From Bradyrhizobium barranii subsp. barranii (GTDB lineage Bacteria; Pseudomonadota; Alphaproteobacteria; Rhizobiales; Xanthobacteraceae), in the NCBI RefSeq assembly GCF_017565645.3, contig NZ_CP086136.1, positions 558,001 to 622,000 of the forward strand: DNA of 64,000 nt, written 5' to 3'. Under the pieces are notes generated by a model. The model searched no databases. It saw nothing but the letters and a program-made list of their open reading frames with translations, and was not told the origin of the DNA. Shown piece after piece: positions 20,673-31,620 of the stretch (position 1 is its first letter; each line of letters starts with the position of its first letter). The position numbers were made by a program, and so were the translations under genes.

Positions 20673-21458
20673 TTAGGCAACTTTTCCTCGCGCCTTGTTT
20701 GCCGCGGACCACCGCCGCTCGATTTCCTTCACCGCCGCCCGCATGCTGGGCAGATACTTTTTGGCGGCCGCCTCTGGGGTCATCGAGGACGAGAAGAAGA
20801 TCAGATTGAGACTGCCGAGAACGGGACCCCCGCCCGGAATGGCCAGCGCGATTGCACTAATGCCCGCCTCCGATCCACCAACGGACGATGCGTAGCCGTC
20901 CTTCCTTGTTTGAGAGAGAATTTCTTCGATGAAGTGGCGGTCCTTCGCCAACGCCGCGTCTTCCTCGACCAGCGATGCGGTGAGGTCCAGCATTTCACGC
21001 CTCAGCGCCGGCGCGGAGGCGGCTAGGATGGCTTTCCCGAGCGCGCTGCGCACCAAGGATCTTCTTCGTCCGACCATGGAGCGATGAACGGAGAACGGAC
21101 TGAAGGGATGTGTGCTCTCGCGGATAAGCACCGAGCCGAGCTCGAAGACACCGAAGTCGCTGGGCCAGGAGACGTCATCCAGGAGGCCGAACATCGCGGG
21201 CAGGGCCGCCTGGCTCGACAAGTCGCGCGAAGACACGCCTTCGCTCAAGGTGCGCACCTGGGGCGTCAGGCCGAACAACGCGTTCGTTTCATCAAAGGTC
21301 ACGTAGCCGTCTTCGCACAGCGTATCGAGCAGGCGATAGCAGGTCGTCCGGTTGAGACCGGTCCTCTTCGCGAGCCGAACGACGTTCGATGGCCCGCTTG
21401 CGTTTAGCTCGTTGATCAGAGCCAAACCTCTCGAAAGTGCCCTGACGTTGCGATGCAT
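20673..21458 (-). CDS. IclR family transcriptional regulator
   Basis: 261 residues. N-terminal winged helix-turn-helix (about 5-65; RLAKRTGLNRTTCYRLLDTL) and C-terminal ligand-binding domain (GKAILAA, KDGYASSVGGSEAGISAIA). Divergent from the catabolic operon, with the inverted repeat at 21473-21489 only 15 bases upstream of its ATG. It resembles MhpR-type regulators of phenylpropionate genes, so it is the probable local regulator; the effector is presumably the aromatic substrate. Confidence 0.92.
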   Translation of the reverse strand: MHRNVRALSRGLALINELNASGPSNVVRLAKRTGLNRTTCYRLLDTLCEDGYVTFDETNALFGLTPQVRTLSEGVSSRDLSSQAALPAMFGLLDDVSWPSDFGVFELGSVLIRESTHPFSPFSVHRSMVGRRRSLVRSALGKAILAASAPALRREMLDLTASLVEEDAALAKDRHFIEEILSQTRKDGYASSVGGSEAGISAIALAIPGGGPVLGSLNLIFFSSSMTPEAAAKKYLPSMRAAVKEIERRWSAANKARGKVA

Positions 21459-21472
21459 GGTCTCTCCGGACG

Positions 21473-21489
21473 TGTTCGCGGTGCGAACA
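21473..21489. promoter_or_regulatory. Candidate IclR operator 1
   Basis: TGTTCGC-GGT-GCGAACA, perfect 7-base arms. Lies in the 116-base gap between divergent iclR and the binding-protein gene. The same arms with a different spacer recur at 29006-29022. Confidence 0.7.
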
Positions 21490-21574
21490 TTTCACAGAGT
21501 CTGATGGAATCATAGTGCGAATGGCGGCAATCCATCGCCCAACCCGCTGAGACAGGCGGTGACGGGAGGAAACG

Positions 21575-22792
21575 ATGGTTCATTCAAGGTTTTATCTGTC
21601 CGCGGCCGTATGTTTGGCCCTCGCAATGCCCGCTGCGGCCCAGACCGCTGGCGGCAGCCCAAATCTGAGCGGTGGTAAGGTCAAGGTCGGTGTCCTGACT
21701 GACATCGCCGGCCCCACGGCCATGGCGAACGGCAAGGGCTCAGTGATCGCGGCTGAAATGGCCGCCGAGGACTTCGGCGCCGGCCTTAACGTCGAGGTGA
21801 CCTCGGCCGACCATCAGGGCAAGCCCGACGTCGGATCGCAGATCGCCGCACGCTGGTTCGACGTCGAAGGCGTGGACGCGATCGCCGACATGCAGGGATC
21901 CCCGATCGGCTTCGCCGTGCAGAACATGGCGGCGCAGAAGAGCAAGATCATGCTGTTGTCCGGTTCGACCTCCTCGGACTTCAACGGCAAGGCCTGCTCG
22001 CCGCTCACGGTCCAGTGGACGGTCGACACCTACAATCTCGCGAAAGGCGCCGCCAAGTCCGTGGTCGCGGCCGGCGGAACGAAGTGGTACTTCCTCACGG
22101 TGGATCAGGCGTACGGCAACGCCTTGACGCGCGATACGTCCGAGCAAGTCAAGCTAAACGGCGGGCAGGTGGTCGGCAACTCGGTGTTCCCGCCGAACAC
22201 GTCCGACTTCGCGTCGTTCCTACTCACCGCGTCCAATGCCGGCGCCAACGTGATCGCGATCGCGGCGTCGAGCGGCGATACGGTCACCGCGATGAAACAG
22301 GCGGACGAATTCGGTCTGAGCTCAGCGGCCAAGATCGTTCCGCTTCAGTCCGTGCTGACGGACGTCTACGCGGTAGGTCAAAAGATCGCGCACGACGCCT
22401 ACGAAGTGTCGCCGTTCTACTGGGACCGGACGCCCGAAACGCGCGCTTGGGCCGAACGCTTCTTCGCCAAGGCCAAGATCATGCCGACCGGATTCCATGC
22501 GGGCGTCTACTCCTCGGTCGTGCACTACCTGAAGGCGGTGAAGGCGACGGGTACCGACGATGCTCCGACCGTGATGAAGCAAATGGAGAAGGAGCGGGTG
22601 CACGACTTCTTCGCCGCTGACGGCTACATCCGTGCCGACCGCAAGATGATCCACGACATGTACCTGCTCCAGGTCAAGAAGCCCGGCGAGAACAAGGGTG
22701 CCTGGGATCTCTACAACGTCATCCAGACATTGCCCGGCGAGTCCGTGAACCGGCCTCTTTCGGAGAGCCCGTGTCCCCTAGTCAAGAAGTAA
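21575..22792 (+). CDS. ABC transporter substrate-binding protein, LivJ/type 1 periplasmic binding fold
   Basis: 405 residues. Signal peptide (LSAAVCLALAMPAAAQ) followed by a type 1 binding fold: VKVGVLTDIAGPTAMANGKG, SPIGFAVQNMAAQKSKIMLL, YFLTVDQAYGN. Related proteins bind branched-chain amino acids or aromatic acids and esters. No permease or ATPase gene accompanies it here, so it must use a transporter encoded elsewhere. Strong ribosome site GGAGGAAACG directly before ATG. First gene of the catabolic operon. Confidence 0.9.
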   Translation: MVHSRFYLSAAVCLALAMPAAAQTAGGSPNLSGGKVKVGVLTDIAGPTAMANGKGSVIAAEMAAEDFGAGLNVEVTSADHQGKPDVGSQIAARWFDVEGVDAIADMQGSPIGFAVQNMAAQKSKIMLLSGSTSSDFNGKACSPLTVQWTVDTYNLAKGAAKSVVAAGGTKWYFLTVDQAYGNALTRDTSEQVKLNGGQVVGNSVFPPNTSDFASFLLTASNAGANVIAIAASSGDTVTAMKQADEFGLSSAAKIVPLQSVLTDVYAVGQKIAHDAYEVSPFYWDRTPETRAWAERFFAKAKIMPTGFHAGVYSSVVHYLKAVKATGTDDAPTVMKQMEKERVHDFFAADGYIRADRKMIHDMYLLQVKKPGENKGAWDLYNVIQTLPGESVNRPLSESPCPLVKK

Positions 22793-22841
22793 CGGGCGGT
22801 AATCGATCGAAACTCAACTCGGCGTTCGAAGGAATCCGATC

Positions 22842-23792
22842 ATGTCAGTGGCCATCGTCTGCGCTTCCCATACTCCCCTGATGTACAAGGGGCCCGCCAG
22901 CAATGAGACCGAGCAGCGTGTTCGAACTGCGTTCGGACATCTCGGGACCTTCGTGAAAGAGTTCGCGCCGGACTACATCATCCAGTTCGCGCCCGATCAT
23001 TTCAACGGCTTCTTTTACGACCTGATGCCATCGTTCTGCGTCGGAGCGGGGGCCGTCTCCTTAGGGGACTGGGGAGGCGGGACGGGCCCGCTGGTAGTTC
23101 CGGAGAAGACGGCACTCGAGCTCATCGACCACGTGAGGGCCGAGGATTTCGACGTGGCCGTGTCGTATCGCATGCCGGTCGATCACGGCTTCGTCCAGTT
23201 GTGGGAGGCGATGCTCGGGGACTTCAAGTCGATCCCGATCCTGCCGATCTTCGTCAACGCCGCTGCGCCGCCCGTTCCGACCTACCGCCGAGCCCGGCAA
23301 CTCGGGGAATCCGTAGGTCGGTTCGCGACACGTTCCGGCAAGCGGGTGTTGTTTGCCGCGTCGGGCGGACTCTCGCACGATCCGCCGCTGCCTTCGATCA
23401 AGGACGCGCCGCCAGAGATCCGGGAGCGGCTGATCAATGGGCGAAATCCGACCGCGGAAGCCAAGGAAGCCCGCGAGAAGCGGGTACTCGAGGCGGGCGT
23501 TCTCGCAGAGGCGGGAAAGGGTCCGTGCCAGCCGCTCAATCCGGATTGGGACGCGGAGTTCATGGAGATCCTGCGCAGCGGGCAGATCTGGCGTGCCGAC
23601 GCGCTCGACACCGGCAAGGTCCGCGAAGTCGCGGGACGTGGCGCCAACGAGGTCCTCGCATGGGTCGCCGCCTTCGGCGCCTTCTCGACCGGCGGCCACT
23701 TCAAGATGGAGCAGGAATTCTACGAAGCCATTCCGGGCTGGATCGCCGGCATGGCGATGATGGCGGCCAAACAGGCCGACGGCACTCACTGA
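22842..23792 (+). CDS. mhpB: Extradiol ring-cleavage dioxygenase, MhpB type (class III, LigB superfamily)
   Basis: 316 residues, close to MhpB length. MhpB opens 2,3-dihydroxyphenylpropionate with Fe2+ and O2. Visible: CASHTPLMYKGP at the N-terminus, FAPDHFNGFFYDLMPSFCVG, the catalytic His in MPVDHGFVQL and the second in ASGGLSHDPPLP. The true substrate may be a related catechol. Second gene of the operon, with the monooxygenase immediately downstream. Confidence 0.87.
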   Translation: MSVAIVCASHTPLMYKGPASNETEQRVRTAFGHLGTFVKEFAPDYIIQFAPDHFNGFFYDLMPSFCVGAGAVSLGDWGGGTGPLVVPEKTALELIDHVRAEDFDVAVSYRMPVDHGFVQLWEAMLGDFKSIPILPIFVNAAAPPVPTYRRARQLGESVGRFATRSGKRVLFAASGGLSHDPPLPSIKDAPPEIRERLINGRNPTAEAKEAREKRVLEAGVLAEAGKGPCQPLNPDWDAEFMEILRSGQIWRADALDTGKVREVAGRGANEVLAWVAAFGAFSTGGHFKMEQEFYEAIPGWIAGMAMMAAKQADGTH

Positions 23793-23836
23793 TCACGAAA
23801 CCCCGCGCGAATGCGGAAGCATCGCGGAGCAGGCAA

Positions 23837-25648
23837 ATGGCATACGAAACAGACGTGCTCATCATAGGCGCCGGCCCGACAGGTTCGACGACCGCGCTGG
23901 CGCTCGCGAACTGCGGCGTTCGAAGTCACATCGTGTCGCGCGGCAATTGGATGGCTGACAGCCCGCGGGCCCACATCACGAACCAGCGTGCCAACGAGGT
24001 CTTCCGCGACCTCGGGGTCGCGGAAGACGTGGCCAGGTACGCGAGCCCCTGGGAGCTCATGGGCGACACGACCTTCACGACCAGCCTGGCCGGCTCCGAG
24101 TTGATCCGGATGCGGACGTGGGGAACCGGTGACGATCGCCGCGGCGACTATCTACGTGCCAGTCCTTGCGGAATGGTCGATATCATCCAGCCGCTGCTTG
24201 AGCCGATCCTGTTCCAGAAAGCCGCGGAGAAGGGCGCGACCTTCGCGTTCAACACTGAGTATGTCCGCCACGAACAGGACGCCGATGGCGTGACCGCAAC
24301 TCTGCGGGATCGCCTGGATGGGCGTGAGTACACCATTCGTGCGCGCTACATGGTCGGCGCGGACGGCGCCCGATCGATGGTGGTCGACCATCTCGATCTG
24401 CCGATCGAAGGCCAGATGGCGCGCGCCGGCACCGTCTACACCGTCTTCAACGCAGATCTCTCCAGATACAGCAAACATCGGCCGAGCATTCTGAACTGGA
24501 TCGTCACGCCGGACGCGAGCTTCGGGGAAATCGGCATGGGGCTGCTGCGGGCCGTGCATCCGTGGACGCAGTGGATCGCCGGTTGGGGCTTCGACATCAG
24601 CAAAGGCGAACCGGACCTGTCGCCGGAAGCGATTATTCCGAAGATCAAGGTGTTAATTGGCGATCCTTCGGTCGACATCGACATCTTGAGAACGTCGATC
24701 TGGTATGTGAACCAGGCCTACGTGACCCAATATTCGAAGGGCCGGGTGCTCTGCGGCGGCGACGCGGTCCACCGGCATCCACCATCGAGCGGGCTCGGCA
24801 ACAACACCTGCGTTCAGGACGGCCACAACCTCGGTTGGAAGCTCGCCTACGCCGTGAAGGGTTGGGCCGGTCCGAAACTTCTGGAAAGCTACTCGCAGGA
24901 GCGCGCACCGGTCGGAAAGCAGATCGTGCTGCGCGCCAACCAGTCCCGGCTCGATTACGCCCCGCTGAACGCATGCTTCCGCGTGCCGGGCGCCGAGAAC
25001 CCTGTCGCCGCGGGCATCGCGCGCTTCCGCGATCCCGGTCCGGAGGGCGTCGCCGCCCGTAAGGCGGCGCAGGCCGCGCTGGATCTGAAGCAGACCGAAT
25101 TCAATGCCCAGGGCACGGAAATGAACCAGCGGTACGAATCCTCGGCCGTGATTCCCGACGTCGGAGGCGAGCCTGAGCAGTGGCGGCGAGATCGCGGCCT
25201 CTACAATCAGCCGACGTCGCGCCCGGGTGCGAAGATCCCGCACGCGTGGCTCGTCGATCGCGATGGCTTGCGGGTGTCGACGCTCGACGTGACGGGCAAG
25301 GGCCTCTTCACTGTCGTGACGGGCCTCGCCGGCGCCGCGTGGAAGCAAGCGGCGCTGCACCTCGACCTGCCGTTTCTTCGCGTCGTCGTGACGGGCTCGC
25401 CTGAAGTGCAGGACCTCTATTGCGAGTGGCAGCGCATTCGAGAGATCGACGAGGCTGGAGTCCTGCTTGTCCGCCCGGACGGCGTGGTCGCCTGGCGCGA
25501 CATTGAGGGGACCTCCGACGCCGGCAAGGCCTTCGACCGGCTGAGCGCAGCCCTACGCGCGGTTCTCGATCTCCCGGACCTCTCGGCGATCCCGCGCGAG
25601 AAGACGACGAAACCTTCGAAGCCGAGCGGCACGCCGCTTTTCGCCTGA
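23837..25648 (+). CDS. FAD-dependent aromatic monooxygenase (TfdB/MhpA group)
   Basis: 603 residues from ATG 23837; the frame runs upstream through mhpB but that is shadow. FAD-binding GAGPTGSTTALALA, the PRAHITNQRANEVFRDLG segment, ADGARS, and the GGDAVHRHPPSSGLG motif. The sequence resembles phenol hydroxylases of the 2,4-dichlorophenol type more than E. coli MhpA. It has the C-terminal thioredoxin-like tail of this group. It probably ortho-hydroxylates a phenolic acid to give the catechol opened by the MhpB-like enzyme. Confidence 0.85.
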   Translation: MAYETDVLIIGAGPTGSTTALALANCGVRSHIVSRGNWMADSPRAHITNQRANEVFRDLGVAEDVARYASPWELMGDTTFTTSLAGSELIRMRTWGTGDDRRGDYLRASPCGMVDIIQPLLEPILFQKAAEKGATFAFNTEYVRHEQDADGVTATLRDRLDGREYTIRARYMVGADGARSMVVDHLDLPIEGQMARAGTVYTVFNADLSRYSKHRPSILNWIVTPDASFGEIGMGLLRAVHPWTQWIAGWGFDISKGEPDLSPEAIIPKIKVLIGDPSVDIDILRTSIWYVNQAYVTQYSKGRVLCGGDAVHRHPPSSGLGNNTCVQDGHNLGWKLAYAVKGWAGPKLLESYSQERAPVGKQIVLRANQSRLDYAPLNACFRVPGAENPVAAGIARFRDPGPEGVAARKAAQAALDLKQTEFNAQGTEMNQRYESSAVIPDVGGEPEQWRRDRGLYNQPTSRPGAKIPHAWLVDRDGLRVSTLDVTGKGLFTVVTGLAGAAWKQAALHLDLPFLRVVVTGSPEVQDLYCEWQRIREIDEAGVLLVRPDGVVAWRDIEGTSDAGKAFDRLSAALRAVLDLPDLSAIPREKTTKPSKPSGTPLFA

Positions 25649-25672
25649 CCAGCAAACCAACGAGATTCAGCT

Positions 25673-26554
25673 ATGAGCGACACGAGACCACAGAACTTTT
25701 CCAGCGTCTGGGCCGATCTGCGGGGAGTTTCCTTCAAGCAGCACTACATCGACGCCGGCGGAATCCGGACCCGCTGCATCGAGTCGGGCGACCCGTCCAA
25801 GCCGCTCGTCCTGGCGCTGCACGGTGTCGGCGGCCATGCGGAGGCGTACTCCAGAAACTTCGGCCCGCACGCCGATAACTTCTGGTTCGTCGCCATCGAC
25901 ATGTTGGGGCACGGTTGGACCGATAAGCCCGCGATCGACTACCAGGTCAAGGACTACGCCGACCACGTGCTCGCCGTCCTCAAGACACTCGGCAGGGACA
26001 AGGCGATGATCAGCGGTGAATCGCTGGGTGGATGGGTCGCGACCTATCTCGCCGTACATCGTCCCGCCGTGGTGGAGAAACTGGTCCTCAACACCGCCGG
26101 CGGTTGGACCGCGCACCCGCAGGTGATGGAACGACTGAAGAAGCTGTCGAATGAGGCCGCTTCCGATCCCTCATGGGAGCGGATCAAGACGCGCCTCGAA
26201 TTCCTGATGTGCGACAAGAGCATGGTCTCCGACGATCTGATCGAGACCCGCCGGGCGATCTACGCGCAGCCGGGATTCGCCGACACGATGAAGCGGATCA
26301 TGTGTCTGCAGGAGATGGAGATCCGTCGACCCAACATGATCACCGCCGACCAATACCGGTCGATCAAGGCTCCGACCATGGTCGTGTGGACCTCGCATGA
26401 TCCGACCGCCACGCCCGACGAAGGCAAGCAGATCGCGGACATGATTGCGGGCTCGAAATTCGTCGTCATGAACCGCTGTGGCCACTGGCCTCAGTTCGAG
26501 GACGCGGAGCAGTTCAACCGCCTCCACATCGAATTCCTCCGGACCGGCAAGTAA
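25673..26554 (+). CDS. mhpC: Meta-cleavage product hydrolase (MhpC-like alpha/beta hydrolase)
   Basis: 293 residues. Oxyanion HG in LALHGVGGHAEAY, nucleophile Ser in SGESLGGWVA, acid in VVWTSHDPTATP and His in NRCGHWPQFE. Family members split the C-C bond of the ring-opened dienoate. Spaced 24 bases after the monooxygenase, consistent with cotranscription. Confidence 0.87.
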   Translation: MSDTRPQNFSSVWADLRGVSFKQHYIDAGGIRTRCIESGDPSKPLVLALHGVGGHAEAYSRNFGPHADNFWFVAIDMLGHGWTDKPAIDYQVKDYADHVLAVLKTLGRDKAMISGESLGGWVATYLAVHRPAVVEKLVLNTAGGWTAHPQVMERLKKLSNEAASDPSWERIKTRLEFLMCDKSMVSDDLIETRRAIYAQPGFADTMKRIMCLQEMEIRRPNMITADQYRSIKAPTMVVWTSHDPTATPDEGKQIADMIAGSKFVVMNRCGHWPQFEDAEQFNRLHIEFLRTGK

Positions 26555-26565
26555 GGATCGTTCAG

Positions 26566-27348
26566 ATGAACCAGCAAACCAAGCACGGCGAGCTCGCCGC
26601 CCAGATCCGCGCAGCCTACGCCGGCACCCCGATCGCGCCCATCCGGACGCAACTCGCCGAACTCGATGTCGATGCAGCCTACGCCATCCAGCAGGAGAAC
26701 ACCGCCCACTGGGAGAAGGAGGGCCGGCGCGTGGTCGGAAGCAAGATCGGGCTGACCTCGCGCGCGGTCCAGAAGCAGCTCGGCGTCGATCGCCCGGACT
26801 TCGGCGTCCTCTTCGCCGATATGATCGTGGGAGAAGACGAGCCCGTCGCGGCGGGGCGCGTCCTGCAGCCGAAGATCGAGGCGGAAGTAGCCTTCCTTCT
26901 CGACCGCGACATCGAGGTCGAAACGCCGACCGTGGCCGACGTCGTGCGGGCAGTGGCCTATGCGATGCCCGCCCTCGAGATCGTCGGCAGCCGTATCACC
27001 AAGTGGGATATCGGAATCGTCGATACCGTTGCCGATAACGCCTCGTCGGGACTCTTCGTTCTGGGAGGACCCGTCCGACGGCTGGATGGCTTGGACCTCC
27101 GCGCCCTCCATATGCAGATGACGAGGAAGGACGAAATCGTATCGAAGGGGACGGGCGCCGCCTGCCTCGGCAATCCGCTCAACGCGATGGCCTGGCTCGC
27201 CGGCGAACTGGCCCGTCGCAAACGGCCGCTGCGCGCCGGTGACGTCGTTCTTTCCGGAGCCCTGGGGCCGATGGTGCCCGTGAATCCGGGCGACGCATTC
27301 GAAGCCAACATCGCCGGGCTCGGGACCGTTTCGGCGCGATTCGCCTGA
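26566..27348 (+). CDS. mhpD: 2-keto-4-pentenoate hydratase (MhpD-like)
   Basis: 260 residues. Adds water to 2-hydroxypenta-2,4-dienoate in the lower meta pathway. Features: RRVVGSKIGLTSRAVQKQLG, PDFGVLFADM, EAEVAFLL, LEIVGSRI and FVLGGPVRRL. Follows the hydrolase by 11 bases. Confidence 0.9.
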   Translation: MNQQTKHGELAAQIRAAYAGTPIAPIRTQLAELDVDAAYAIQQENTAHWEKEGRRVVGSKIGLTSRAVQKQLGVDRPDFGVLFADMIVGEDEPVAAGRVLQPKIEAEVAFLLDRDIEVETPTVADVVRAVAYAMPALEIVGSRITKWDIGIVDTVADNASSGLFVLGGPVRRLDGLDLRALHMQMTRKDEIVSKGTGAACLGNPLNAMAWLAGELARRKRPLRAGDVVLSGALGPMVPVNPGDAFEANIAGLGTVSARFA

Positions 27349-27372
27349 CGCCACGCACCAAAGGAACACCAG

Positions 27373-28242
27373 ATGAAGCTCGTCCGCTTTGGCAATCCCG
27401 GCGCCGAGAAGCCGGGACTCGTCGACGATCAGGGACGCCTGCGCGACCTGTCGAATGTGATCGCCGACGTCACTCCAGCCAACCTGTCGCGTTCAGCGCT
27501 CCAAAAGATCGCCGCGGTCGATCCGTCCACGTTGCCGCTGGTCGCCGGCGAGCCGCGCCTGGGTGTGCCAATCGTCGACGTCGGAAAATTCGTCGCGATC
27601 GGGCTCAACTACGCCGACCATGCCGCGGAGGCGAACCTTCCGCTGCCCTCCGAGCCCATCGTCTTTCAGAAGGCGATCACTTCGCTCAGCGGGCCCAACG
27701 ACGACGTCGTCCTGCCGAAGGGCTCGACGAAATCGGACTGGGAGGTCGAGCTGGGCATCGTGATCGGCACGCGGGCATCCTACGTGGAGCGCGCCGACGC
27801 TCTCGCCCACGTCGCCGGCTACTGCGTCGTGAACGACGTCAGCGAGCGCGAGTATCAGATGGAACGCGGCGGCACGTGGGACAAGGGCAAGGGCTGTGAT
27901 AGCTTCGGCCCGGTCGGGCCGTGGCTGGTGACGAGGGACGAAGTCTCCGATCCGCAGGCGCTCGACGTCTGGCTCGACGTCAACGGGCAACGCATGCAGC
28001 AGGGCAATACCCGTACGATGATCTTCGACTGCGCGGAGATCGTCAGCTACGTCAGCCGCTTCATGACGCTGATGCCCGGCGATATCATCGCGACCGGGAC
28101 GCCGCCCGGCGTGGGCATGGGCAAGAAGCCCGCTCCGATCTATCTCAAGCCGGGCGACGTCATGACGCTCGGCATCGAGGGGCTCGGAACTCAGCGTCAG
28201 CAGACCCGGGAGTGGTCGCCCGCTGCGGGGCAGCAGACATGA
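27373..28242 (+). CDS. Fumarylacetoacetate hydrolase (FAH) family protein
   Basis: 289 residues. N-terminal small domain, then the FAH core: VGKFVAIGLNYADHAAEANL, the metal-binding acids in DWEVELGIVIG, VVNDVSEREYQ and the late GDIIATGTPPGVGMG. Family members hydrolyse or isomerise diketo acids, for example 2-hydroxyhepta-diene-dioate isomerase. It may provide a second exit for the ring-opened product. Its TGA overlaps the ATG of the SDR gene (ATGA). Confidence 0.87.
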   Translation: MKLVRFGNPGAEKPGLVDDQGRLRDLSNVIADVTPANLSRSALQKIAAVDPSTLPLVAGEPRLGVPIVDVGKFVAIGLNYADHAAEANLPLPSEPIVFQKAITSLSGPNDDVVLPKGSTKSDWEVELGIVIGTRASYVERADALAHVAGYCVVNDVSEREYQMERGGTWDKGKGCDSFGPVGPWLVTRDEVSDPQALDVWLDVNGQRMQQGNTRTMIFDCAEIVSYVSRFMTLMPGDIIATGTPPGVGMGKKPAPIYLKPGDVMTLGIEGLGTQRQQTREWSPAAGQQT

Positions 28243-28991
28243 CCCTCTACAGCGGAAGGTTCGAAGGACGGACGGCCGTCGTCACCGGCGCGGCGTCCGG
28301 CATCGGCCGCGATGTCGCCCGTCGCCTGGCTGCCGAGGGCGCGCGCGTCTCCATGTGGGACTTGAACGCCTCCGCCCTCGCCACCGCCGCGGGTGAGGCC
28401 GGGGCGACGAATACGCAGCCAGTCGACATCGCGGCAGAAGACGCCGTCGAGGCGGCCATGGGGCGGAGCCTCGAGGCGCTGGGCGGACGACTCGACATTC
28501 TGGTCGCAAGCGCCGGCATTACGGGGCCGAACGGAGCCGTGAAGGACTATTCGGGCGCCGATTGGCGGAGGATCTTCGACGTCAATGTCAACGGCGCCTT
28601 CTACTGCAACCGCGCCGCGGTCCGCGCGATGGAGAAGGGCGGCTACGGACGCATCGTCAACGTCGCCTCCGTGGCGGGAAAGGAAGGCAACCCGAATGCG
28701 ACGGCCTACAGCGCATCCAAGGCGGCCGTGATCTCGCTGACCAAATCGCTCGGCAAGGAAACTGCGGCGACGGGCATTCGCGTCAACTGCATCACGCCGG
28801 CAGCGATCAAGACGCCCCTGTTCGATCAAATGACGGCGCAGCACATCGACTTCATGCTGTCGAAAATTCCGCTCGGGAGATTCGGCACGGTCGAAGAGGC
28901 GACCTCGCTCGTCTGTTGGCTCGCCAGCGATGAGTGCTCGTTCAGCACCGGCGCGGTATTCGACCTGTCCGGTGGGCGGGCGACCTACTAG
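28239..28991 (+). CDS. Short-chain dehydrogenase/reductase
   Basis: 250 residues from ATG 28239, overlapping the FAH stop. Classical SDR: TGAASGIG cofactor loop, ASAGITG, catalytic Ser in VNVASVAG and YSASK active-site pair, PAAIKTPL. Probably oxidises or reduces an intermediate of the pathway. Last gene before the operator-containing gap. Confidence 0.88.
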   Translation: MTLYSGRFEGRTAVVTGAASGIGRDVARRLAAEGARVSMWDLNASALATAAGEAGATNTQPVDIAAEDAVEAAMGRSLEALGGRLDILVASAGITGPNGAVKDYSGADWRRIFDVNVNGAFYCNRAAVRAMEKGGYGRIVNVASVAGKEGNPNATAYSASKAAVISLTKSLGKETAATGIRVNCITPAAIKTPLFDQMTAQHIDFMLSKIPLGRFGTVEEATSLVCWLASDECSFSTGAVFDLSGGRATY

Positions 28992-29005
28992 CCGAGCATT
29001 CGCCA

Positions 29006-29022
29006 TGTTCGCGTGGCGAACA
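29006..29022. promoter_or_regulatory. Candidate IclR operator 2
   Basis: TGTTCGC-GTG-GCGAACA. Arms are identical to those of operator 1 at 21473-21489, with the same three-base spacer length. Lies just after the SDR gene, about 260 bases upstream of the dehydrogenase gene, suggesting a second promoter of the same regulon. Confidence 0.7.
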
Positions 29023-29040
29023 ATCTGAATGAATGTGTTG

Positions 29041-29057
29041 TGACCCGGACCGGGTCA
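29041..29057. promoter_or_regulatory. Second palindrome upstream of the dehydrogenase operon
   Basis: TGACCCGG-A-CCGGGTCA, perfect 8-base arms around a single base, 18 bases after operator 2. It is unlike the IclR-type site and could bind another regulator or form a hairpin. Confidence 0.45.
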
Positions 29058-29109
29058 TTCGATAGTCGGACAAACAATAAAAAGCGCCGCAGAGCGTACG
29101 GAGGAAACG

Positions 29110-29139
29110 ATGACCAGCAGCAGAACCGAAACAGGTTGA
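29110..29139 (+). CDS. Possible leader micro-ORF (9 codons)
   Basis: ATG with an excellent ribosome site encodes MTSSRTETG then TGA. The 13 bases GGAGGAAACGATG are identical to those at the start of the binding-protein gene (21565-21577). It may be a translated leader or the relic of a deleted first gene. Starting the dehydrogenase here is impossible because of the stop. Confidence 0.35.
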   Translation: MTSSRTETG

Positions 29140-29281: not shown

Positions 29282-30391
29282 ATGGCCACAATGAAAGCGG
29301 CTCGGCTACACCAAGTAGGCACTACTTTTTCGATCGACGAGATCGCAGTTCCTAAACCGCGCCCCAACGACGTTCTGGTCAAGGTGAAGGCGTGCGGAAT
29401 CATTCCGAACATGAAGAACGTGATGGCGCACTACGCGGAGTGGTTTCCCTTCCTCCCGCTTCCGCCGCTGCCGGCCATCTACGGTCTGGACGCCTCCGGA
29501 GAGGTCGTCGAGGTCGGCAGTCAGGTCAAGTCCATCAAGACCGGCGACCGCGTGTACGTGAATCCGGGCACGTCGTGCGGGTCATGCCACGCCTGCCGCT
29601 GCGGACAGCCCATCAACTGCGACGCCTACACCTTCCTCGGATACTTCGGTTTCGGTCCTCGCTCGAGCCAGGTCTTCGTCGACTATCCGTACGCCGGCTT
29701 TGCCGAGTACATGACGGCACCGACCTCTTCGCTTGTGAAGCTTCCCCCGTCAGTGTCCTATGAGGCCGCTGCCCGCCTTGGATATCTGGGAACGGCGTAC
29801 TCCGCCTTGCGAAAGGCAGGCGCTCGTGCGGGAACGAGTGTGATCGTCAGCGGTGCGACCGGCACGCTCGGCCTCGGAGCGGTCATCCTCGCTCTGGGGA
29901 TGGGCGTCACCAAGATCTTCGGCGTGGCGCGGGACAAGAAGTTGCTCGAACGCCTGCGGGCGATCGCTCCTTCTCGGATTCACGTGCTGTCCGCCGGCGA
30001 ACGACCGGTGGACGAATGGGTACGCGAGCACACCGACGGCCTGGGAGCAGACATCTTCATCGATGCTGTTGGGCCGGGCGCTCCGAGCTCAACGTCGCTG
30101 GCCGGCATCAACGCGCTGAGACGCGGCGGCCGGATGGTGGACATCGGCGGCATGGCCGAGCCCCTGCCGTTGGAGATGTTTCGACTGATGTGCTTCCAGA
30201 TCAGCGTCATCGGCTCGCTCTGGTTCGACGTCGCGGAAGGCCAGGACATGGTCGAGATGGCGGCGGCCGGGACCTTGGATCTCTCAGTCTTCGAGCACGA
30301 GCGATATCCGCTGCGAGACATCTCCAAGGCGCTCGAAGCGGTCGATCGCAGGACCGGCGGCTTCAGCAACGTCGTGATCGTCCACGAATAG
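29282..30391 (+). CDS. MDR-family alcohol dehydrogenase-like protein without catalytic zinc ligands
   Basis: 369 residues, medium-chain dehydrogenase fold with NAD(P) motif SGATGTLGLGAV. The structural zinc lobe is intact: four Cys in TSCGSCHACRCGQPINC spaced 2-2-7. The three catalytic zinc positions are all changed: ACGII where GIC is usual, YGLD where GHE is usual and LGYLGTAY where a GC is usual. So hydride transfer, if any, is zinc-independent. Followed by the cupin gene 14 bases on. Confidence 0.85.
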   Translation: MATMKAARLHQVGTTFSIDEIAVPKPRPNDVLVKVKACGIIPNMKNVMAHYAEWFPFLPLPPLPAIYGLDASGEVVEVGSQVKSIKTGDRVYVNPGTSCGSCHACRCGQPINCDAYTFLGYFGFGPRSSQVFVDYPYAGFAEYMTAPTSSLVKLPPSVSYEAAARLGYLGTAYSALRKAGARAGTSVIVSGATGTLGLGAVILALGMGVTKIFGVARDKKLLERLRAIAPSRIHVLSAGERPVDEWVREHTDGLGADIFIDAVGPGAPSSTSLAGINALRRGGRMVDIGGMAEPLPLEMFRLMCFQISVIGSLWFDVAEGQDMVEMAAAGTLDLSVFEHERYPLRDISKALEAVDRRTGGFSNVVIVHE

Positions 30392-30405
30392 GAAGGAGAG
30401 ATCAG

Positions 30406-30945
30406 ATGTCTCGCTTGATTGTCACTTCTCATAAGGATGGGAAATCCTCGATTGGATTGGACCAATCAATACCCGCAATCCCGTTCAAATCGGTGCCGGG
30501 GTTCGACACCGCGCTGGTGTGGGGAACCGCGGCCGCTCCATCCGTTCCATGGGATGGTCGCAACGCCGCGAAGGGACACGAGAGCGTCCTGCCCGATGTG
30601 GGAGAGACGCGGTTGATGAAGGTGACCTTTCCCCCTGATTCCGTGATGATGTCGGCAGACTTCGATCCCGCGGCTGCCGGTGCGGAATACATGTCACGCA
30701 TACCGGGACTGGCGCAGCGGTTCGAGCCGGATAGCCCGGGGATGCACACGACCGACAGCGTGGACTATGGCATCCTGATCGAAGGGGAGATCTCGCTAGA
30801 ACTCGACGACGGGAAGACGGTCGCGCTCAAGCCGGGCGACGTCGTCGTTCAAAACGGCACTCGGCATGCCTGGCGCAATCCCGGGGCCAAGCCCGCCACG
30901 CTGATCTTCGTGCTGATCGGAGCCAGCCGTTCCGCGGACAAGTAA
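30406..30945 (+). CDS. Cupin-domain protein
   Basis: 179 residues. One cupin barrel in the C-terminal half: HTTDSVDYGILIEGEISLEL followed by DGKTVALKPGDVVVQNGTRH. Metal ligands could be the His at GMHTTD, the Asp/Tyr of DYG and His in TRHAW. The N-terminal half has a TALVWGTAAAPSVPWDG stretch. Might be a dioxygenase-like or binding protein of the same pathway; its reaction is not known. Confidence 0.75.
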   Translation: MSRLIVTSHKDGKSSIGLDQSIPAIPFKSVPGFDTALVWGTAAAPSVPWDGRNAAKGHESVLPDVGETRLMKVTFPPDSVMMSADFDPAAAGAEYMSRIPGLAQRFEPDSPGMHTTDSVDYGILIEGEISLELDDGKTVALKPGDVVVQNGTRHAWRNPGAKPATLIFVLIGASRSADK

Positions 30946-30953
30946 TTCATCGG

Positions 30954-31620
30954 ATGAACCGTGCAATGAGACTTTTCTCGACCGTGGTGGGTGCCGTCGC
31001 GGGCGTTCTTTTGCTCCAGGGTGCCTTCGCCCGAACGCAAACCGTGCCGCGCGTCGGGTTCGTGGCCGGTGCCGGTGGCTACCCGAAGATGGCAGTGACC
31101 AATCAAGCGTTTTTCGATGGCCTGTCGGATGCGGGCTACAAAGACGGTAGCACGCTGACTGTCGTCTTCCGGACGGCCGAGGGCAACATGAGCCTCATGC
31201 CCGAACTGATCGCGCAGGTCTTGGCTGAGAAGGTCGATTACCTGGTCGTGTCCAGCTCTCCTGGATGTGCAGCGGCACAGAAAGCGACGTCCACGGTGCC
31301 AGTTCTGTGCATCTCAGTTCAGGACAGTCCGATCAAAGAGGGGCTGACGACAACGCTCGAGCACGGGAATGAAAATTTGGTAGGGGTGCACAGCTATCTA
31401 CCGGACGGCATATTACAGCAATTGCGGATGCTCCAGCAATTAAAGAGCCAGGCCTAAAGAAGCTTGGCGTTTTGTTCAATCCCGCGAACGCCACGCACAA
31501 ACGTCTGTTGGCTGATTGGCAGGATGTCGCCGCCGCACAGAAGATCGAGGTCGTACCCATGCCGGCCGTCGGGCCGGCGGATCTCGAGAAGACTATTCTG
31601 AACCAACGCGGAAATTGCCA
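30954..31620 (+). pseudogene. ABC-type substrate-binding protein (PF04392-like), frameshifted and truncated
   Basis: Signal peptide and N-terminal lobe (VPRVGFVAGAGGYPKMAVTN, LVVSSSPGCAAAQKAT) are open to TAA at 31455-31457. The second lobe continues in another frame (EPGLKKLGVLFNPANATHKR, IEVVPMPAVGPADLEKTI) and is lost at ~31605, where it runs into the end of the glsB-like gene on the opposite strand. The gene is broken twice. It trails the cupin gene by 8 bases, as if once part of that operon. Confidence 0.75.

Follow-up and report, generated by a model that had tools for sequence, protein, structure and literature searches.

Two palindromes with identical arms, which lie 7.5 kb apart in a 64,000-nucleotide stretch of the Bradyrhizobium barranii subsp. 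barranii genome (contig NZ_CP086136.1, positions 558,001 to 622,000; below, the window, from whose first letter all coordinates are counted), very probably serve as the operators at which a single adjacent IclR-family regulator acts on its own gene, iclR, and on two operons for aromatic breakdown. Read from the sequence, the case draws on the co-occurrence of the palindromes with iclR and with the second operon, on a base change shared by both sites in Methylobacterium, on a published motif class and on promoter spacing, and it lends support to the earlier note on this DNA, which had proposed one IclR regulator for iclR and both operons. Going beyond that note, we suggest that the regulator is MhpR-like and probably an activator. 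The elements concerned are:

21473..21489, no strand: site 1, putative operator TGTTCGC-GGT-GCGAACA, between iclR and the binding-protein gene
29006..29022, no strand: site 2, putative operator TGTTCGC-GTG-GCGAACA, before the dehydrogenase operon, also in relatives
20673..21458, minus strand: iclR, MhpR-like IclR-family regulator of 261 aa, with HTH_IclR and IclR_C above the Pfam cut-offs

Both palindromes have exactly the positions, the perfect 7-base arms and the 3-base spacers (GGT and GTG) that had been reported for them. The centre of site 1 is located 23 bp upstream of the iclR start and 94 bp upstream of the start of the binding-protein gene, and 14 bases separate the first base of site 2 from the stop codon of the short-chain dehydrogenase (SDR) gene that ends operon 1. 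With up to three mismatches allowed, the window holds seven matches, i.e. the perfect pair and five matches with three mismatches; a shuffled window gives 5.3 ± 2.2, so that the total is at chance level and the perfect pair alone stands out. In the complete genome (11,399,526 bases on 4 contigs) the perfect pattern TGTTCGC-N3-GCGAACA occurs at sites 1 and 2 only, and the reversed pattern of the palindrome, which served as control, has no perfect match. There is no overall excess at up to two mismatches (52 matches vs. 56 for the control), and exactly one mismatch is found at 7 places vs. about 2.0 expected. By chance, about 0.046 perfect sites are expected at this genome size and composition; the finding of two intergenic perfect sites within 7.5 kb, against some 0.05 expected, is therefore not a matter of chance. 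The earlier note had seen no third site, and the genome scan indeed gives no third perfect copy; the many scattered copies of the motif that the note had named as an argument against its proposal did not turn up either.

Around each of the seven one-mismatch places 3 kb were read, with open frames filtered on third-base composition, and in this reading no third operator was seen beside aromatic genes. One place (L006, G000:C1:4539705-4539721) carries the palindrome TGTTCGCATTCCGAACA between divergent genes of the IclR-family and the dihydrodipicolinate-synthase type, both assigned by family search. Two others (L003 and L007) are identical sites with the same gene starting downstream, two (L004 and L005) lie inside open frames, and nothing clear was found in the 3 kb around the last two (L008 and L009).

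The palindrome travels with the regulator gene. In a set of 265 Bradyrhizobium genomes, in which iclR was scored as present at a match of E ≤ 1e-60, the perfect site is found in 26 genomes, the reversed control pattern in 5 and iclR in 18, and the perfect site occurs in 16 of the 18 genomes with iclR vs. 10 of the 247 without it (Fisher's test, 4e-17). As to the two exceptions, G043 has a one-mismatch site, TGTTCGCAGTACGAACA, at the expected place, and G225 has an iclR remnant devoid of the first 41 residues, with no cluster homologue in the 20 kb read. Of the ten genomes with a perfect site and no iclR, nine are without any homologue of the two operons in the 3 kb surveyed: three of these orphan sites (L017, L028 and L034) lie inside open frames, L017 and L028 being one stretch that recurs in related genomes, L030 and L036 have 231 bp in common, and around the remaining ones no open frame passed the filter in the 3 kb read. 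We take these nine sites as background. The tenth genome, G073 (L080, contig C11), has a cut-down cluster consisting of the end of the hydratase gene, the FAH and SDR genes, site 2, the dehydrogenase and the cupin gene.

Site 2, in turn, accompanies the second operon. The region downstream was read in 18 Bradyrhizobium iclR clusters (the window, L041, L077-L079, L081 and L083-L094), with L082/G023, where the contig ends, and G073 and G225, which have no intact iclR, left aside. Site 2 is present in all five clusters with an adjoining dehydrogenase gene (the window, L041, L077, L079 and L088; four perfect, one with one mismatch) and in one of the 13 clusters without it (Fisher's test, 0.0007), this one being L078, where the site precedes an acyl-CoA-dehydrogenase-like gene. 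As the genomes share ancestry, both Fisher values overstate independence. In L079 and L077 the dehydrogenase genes look decayed, as their matches are split over several pieces or frames, yet site 2 is intact; the FAH and SDR genes of L079 are split in the same way.

The arms of the iclR-proximal site are kept as well. We compared 19 intact iclR genes of Bradyrhizobium, namely 18 from 17 of the 265 genomes together with L041; the named loci L042-L052, which overlap genomes of the set, were entered only once. The site lies 13-16 bp upstream of iclR in all 19 and has identical arms in 18, with 8 different spacers. Reyranella, whose IclR is 69% identical, retains the exact arms. In Methylobacterium platani (IclR 63% identical) TGTTCAT-GGG-GTGAACA is found before operon 1 and TGTTCAC-GCA-GTGAACA before operon 2, i.e. 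as compared with Bradyrhizobium base 6 differs in all four arms, and in one arm of site 1 base 7 differs as well; in this species the first gene of operon 2 encodes an FUSC-type transport protein, and the dehydrogenase gene comes next. The segment that we take to be the recognition helix of IclR reads RTTTYRLL in M. platani, whereas both Bradyrhizobium and Reyranella have RTTCYRLL; this is one instance only. Relatives at a greater distance have sites of the same kind beside MhpB- to MhpD-type genes, TGTGCACCTAGTGCACA (G929), TGTGCACCAGGTGCACA (G729) and CGTGCACCAGGTGCACA (G690), and further sites are TGTTCTCATAGCGAACA (G742) and TGTTCGCATAGTGAACA (G521), the latter with no MhpB- to MhpD-type genes nearby. 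The E. coli operator is GGTGCACCTGGTGCACA; the half-site is TGTGCAC (or GGTGCAC) in E. coli, G929 and G729, and TGTTCGC here.

The regulator belongs to the IclR family (HTH_IclR, 38.5 bits at a cut-off of 22; IclR_C, 42.3 bits at a cut-off of 24), and its best NCBIfam model, NF007341 (204.2 bits), is also the best model of E. coli MhpR, which scores 343.9 bits; the cut-off of 269 is unmet here. The arrangement, too, resembles that of MhpR and mhpABCDFE, the E. coli system for 3-(3-hydroxyphenyl)propionate degradation, in that an IclR-family gene is divergent from MhpB- and MhpD-type genes preceded by an operator, which in both cases is a palindrome of 17 bp, its two 7-base arms being separated by 3 bases. 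Apart from the half-site, the present system differs from E. coli mhp in its second operon with an operator of its own, in a binding-protein gene at the first position, and in that an FAH hydrolase and an SDR are encoded with no match to MhpF or MhpE. E. coli MhpR is an activator according to the K-12 annotation, and aromatic inducers raise its binding (PMC11237407). According to Suvorova and Gelfand 2021 (PMC8222616), the IclR motif class TGT-11-ACA, i.e. TGTYCRYW3RYGRACA, is over-represented in aromatic regulons, and the centres of IclR-family sites are commonest at -22 of the gene start. The arms of both sites fit TGTYCRY...RYGRACA with the same 3-base spacing, and the centre of site 1 is at -23 from iclR, whereas the spacer, which in this class consists of A/T (W3), is free here (GGT, GTG). 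According to the same article, related palindromes are found with PcaU, PobR and PcaR, IclR-type regulators of aromatic degradation like the one proposed here; the product of iclR differs in scoring below the cut-off of model TIGR02431 (93.6 bits vs. 284.75). PcaU and PobR have an additional, external half-site.

The putative promoter elements next to the two sites are:

29038..29043, plus strand: TTGTGA, -35-like hexamer of operon 2, 15 bp past site 2; TTGTGA, TTGTGG or TTGTAG in 7/7 Bradyrhizobium site-2 leaders
29061..29066, plus strand: GATAGT, -10-like hexamer of operon 2, 17 bp past the -35-like hexamer; GATAGT, GATAAT or GACAGT in 7/7
21505..21510, plus strand: TGGAAT, weak -35-like hexamer 15 bp past site 1

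All seven Bradyrhizobium site-2 leaders thus have one offset, i.e. operator, 15 bp, TTGTRR, 17 bp and GATART (GACAGT in one of them), and in E. coli the layout is operator, 15 bp, ATTGTA, 17 bp and TATACT. Hence the operator lies 15 bp ahead of the -35-like hexamer just as at mhpA, although the hexamers here are weak. G929 has TTGTGA and AATAGC at the same layout, and G742 (TTGTCA) and G521 (TTGTGA) have the -35-like hexamer at the same offset with a second hexamer that is not clear. At site 1, TGGAAT, TGGAAA, TGGAAG or TGGCAT is found at the same place in all nine site-1 rows shown, and the second hexamer is not clear at that spacing.

Based on these findings we propose that MhpR-like dimers read the TGTTCGC half-sites and would act in response to an aromatic compound, perhaps a phenylpropionate-type inducer. 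As site 1 lies 14 bp before iclR, the regulator could limit its own synthesis there; the same site would also allow activation of the divergent operon 1, from the binding protein to the SDR, and site 2 that of operon 2, which encodes the dehydrogenase, the cupin-domain protein and a further binding protein. In either case the expected transcription start would lie some 60 bp downstream of the site. The system amounts to a regulon of the MhpR-like type whose operator has diverged, and its control circuit is of an ordinary kind. That the regulator binds the sites, that it activates and does not repress, that it controls its own gene and the nature of its inducer are all inferred; provided that one regulator occupies both sites, activation of both operons is likely, and it is favoured over repression because of operator position only.

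Several observations weigh against this proposal. The Reyranella (L053) and G521 (L102) stretches contain iclR and the site alone, the operon genes having no homologue there, a near-identical palindrome stands before a second IclR-family gene (L006), so that cross-binding is possible, and G073 keeps site 2 and the dehydrogenase operon with no iclR match at the threshold used, i.e. the site there either persists after loss of its regulator or serves a different protein. Moreover, the relatives belong mostly to one genus, so the counts are not independent events. As regards the promoters, the -35/-10-like hexamers at site 2 match in 8 of 12 bases, the consensus promoter scan called none at either site (the hexamers of operon 2 being under the scanner cut-off), and G729, G690 and site 2 of M. 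platani have no hexamers at this offset. Weak hexamers are common at activated promoters.

The same regulator might instead act at both sites as a repressor that is released by inducer, as many IclR-family members do, a rather unlikely variant of the one-regulator proposal. It is in keeping with the centre of site 1, which at 23 bp before iclR is close to the commonest position given in PMC8222616 and would suit repression of iclR; a repressor, however, usually overlaps the promoter, whereas the sites of both operons lie upstream of the -35-like hexamer, the position of the activator MhpR in E. coli. It is quite improbable that site 2 is the target of a different protein, e.g. of the second IclR-family regulator, which adjoins TGTTCGCATTCCGAACA, and that its likeness to site 1 is secondary: the L006 gene does have both IclR domains and adjoins a palindrome one mismatch away, and G073 retains site 2 without this iclR, but site 2 has the very arms of site 1, and the two Methylobacterium sites share one base change.

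Still less probable is a site 2 without regulatory role, as a remnant or as part of a terminator behind operon 1. The site begins 15 bp past the final stop codon of operon 1, but no T-run follows the palindrome, the terminator scan called none at either palindrome and placed its two nearby terminator-like calls on the other strand and elsewhere, the arms stay constant where spacer and flanks vary, and the site accompanies the second operon rather than the end of operon 1. Chance palindromes, finally, have a negligible probability. Orphan sites do exist, in 9 of the 265 genomes besides G073 and three of them in open frames, and the control pattern is likewise present in 5 of the 265; against this stand the proximity of the two sites, at the low number expected per genome, and the conservation of their arms in relatives.

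Having set out these alternatives, we return to the proposed regulon of one MhpR-like activator and to the genes predicted to be under its control, which are the following:

21575..22792, plus strand: periplasmic binding protein (Peripla_BP_6, domain match), first gene of operon 1
22842..23792, plus strand: MhpB-type extradiol dioxygenase (NF009910, 363.4 bits vs. cut-off 291)
23837..25648, plus strand: FAD monooxygenase at the MhpA position (FAD_binding_3 and Rng_hyd_C; below all NCBIfam cut-offs shown)
25673..26554, plus strand: alpha/beta hydrolase at the MhpC position (Pfam match; below the NCBIfam cut-offs shown)
26566..27348, plus strand: MhpD-type 2-keto-4-pentenoate hydratase (NF008461, 350.6 bits vs. 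350, barely above)
27373..28242, plus strand: FAH-family hydrolase, 2,4-didehydro-3-deoxy-L-rhamnonate hydrolase-like (NF053535, 496.6 bits vs. 500, just below; FAA_hydrolase above cut-off)
28239..28991, plus strand: SDR (profile matches), last gene of operon 1
29110..29139, plus strand: conserved mini-ORF MTSSRTETG* with the strong ribosome-binding site GGAGGAAACG
29282..30391, plus strand: zinc-type medium-chain alcohol dehydrogenase (ADH_N and ADH_zinc_N), first full-length gene of operon 2
30388..30945, plus strand: cupin-domain protein (Cupin_2), operon 2
30954..31457, plus strand: ABC_sub_bind protein of 167 aa (profile positions 12-113 of 293), operon 2

The monooxygenase domains were tested on 23861-25648, and the start at 23837 was taken from the sequence. 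The ABC_sub_bind protein is probably shortened, as its match spans only part of the profile.

At 27373-28991, the FAH-family hydrolase and the SDR occupy the place of MhpF and MhpE and may replace them. No MhpE match (TIGR03217, 1e-40) was found in 18 genomes, i.e. 17 iclR carriers and G073, with G225 left out, and the 14 built-in control genomes gave none either; four of five other genomes match, the fifth being G521, where the stretch read contains no cluster of this kind. E. coli K-12 MhpE reaches 601 bits on this model, and the best weak match in the B. barranii genome 81 bits vs. a cut-off of 286. MhpF (TIGR03215, 1e-30) is likewise without a match in 19 genomes, i.e. the 18 iclR genomes and G073, and the positive control G929 matches. 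The relatives with TGTGCAC operators have the MhpE and MhpF matches. Replacement by SDR and FAH cannot hold for all carriers, because six Bradyrhizobium clusters lack the pair, ending after the monooxygenase (G088, G154, G160 and G241) or after the hydratase (G102 and G112). The idea of such a pathway end was suggested by a sugar pathway in which a dehydrogenase step is followed by that of an FAH-type hydrolase (PMC6336799); a description of an SDR and an acylpyruvate hydrolase at the end of a meta pathway was not recognised among the literature matches listed.

In the leader of operon 2, a mini-ORF of 8-9 codons is found in six of six dehydrogenase-type leaders and is absent from the seventh site-2 leader, that of L078; a 3-base gap and several third-base changes among the leaders suggest that it is translated. 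Taken together, these observations allow us to speculate, tentatively, that a split MhpR-type regulon has arisen in which regulator and operators co-diverged, with an operator series from TGTGCAC (E. coli-like) and TGTTCAC (Methylobacterium) to TGTTCGC (Bradyrhizobium and Reyranella), and which governs an SDR/FAH variant of the meta-cleavage pathway, operon 2 being tuned by the translated leader of 8-9 codons. In this variant, the SDR would oxidise the product of the hydratase, giving a 2,4-dioxo acid that the FAH-family hydrolase would cleave, and the two enzymes would take the roles of the aldolase MhpE and the dehydrogenase MhpF. The locus offers a testable two-operon regulon in soil and nodule bacteria. 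How IclR-family proteins choose their DNA could be studied on its naturally occurring series of operators and recognition helices, and it hints at another way in which the meta-cleavage pathway may end.

No paper on this regulator or on an IclR operator in Bradyrhizobium was recognised among the literature matches listed, and the plasmid records gave no match to the IclR protein at 1e-50. Solved structures gave eight matches, all of them distant IclR relatives. In a spread sample of the class, two of 385 genomes match IclR, i.e. the B. barranii genome itself and one relative at 42%, and in a spread sample of the order five of 397 do so, i.e. the same genome and four relatives at 40-48%.

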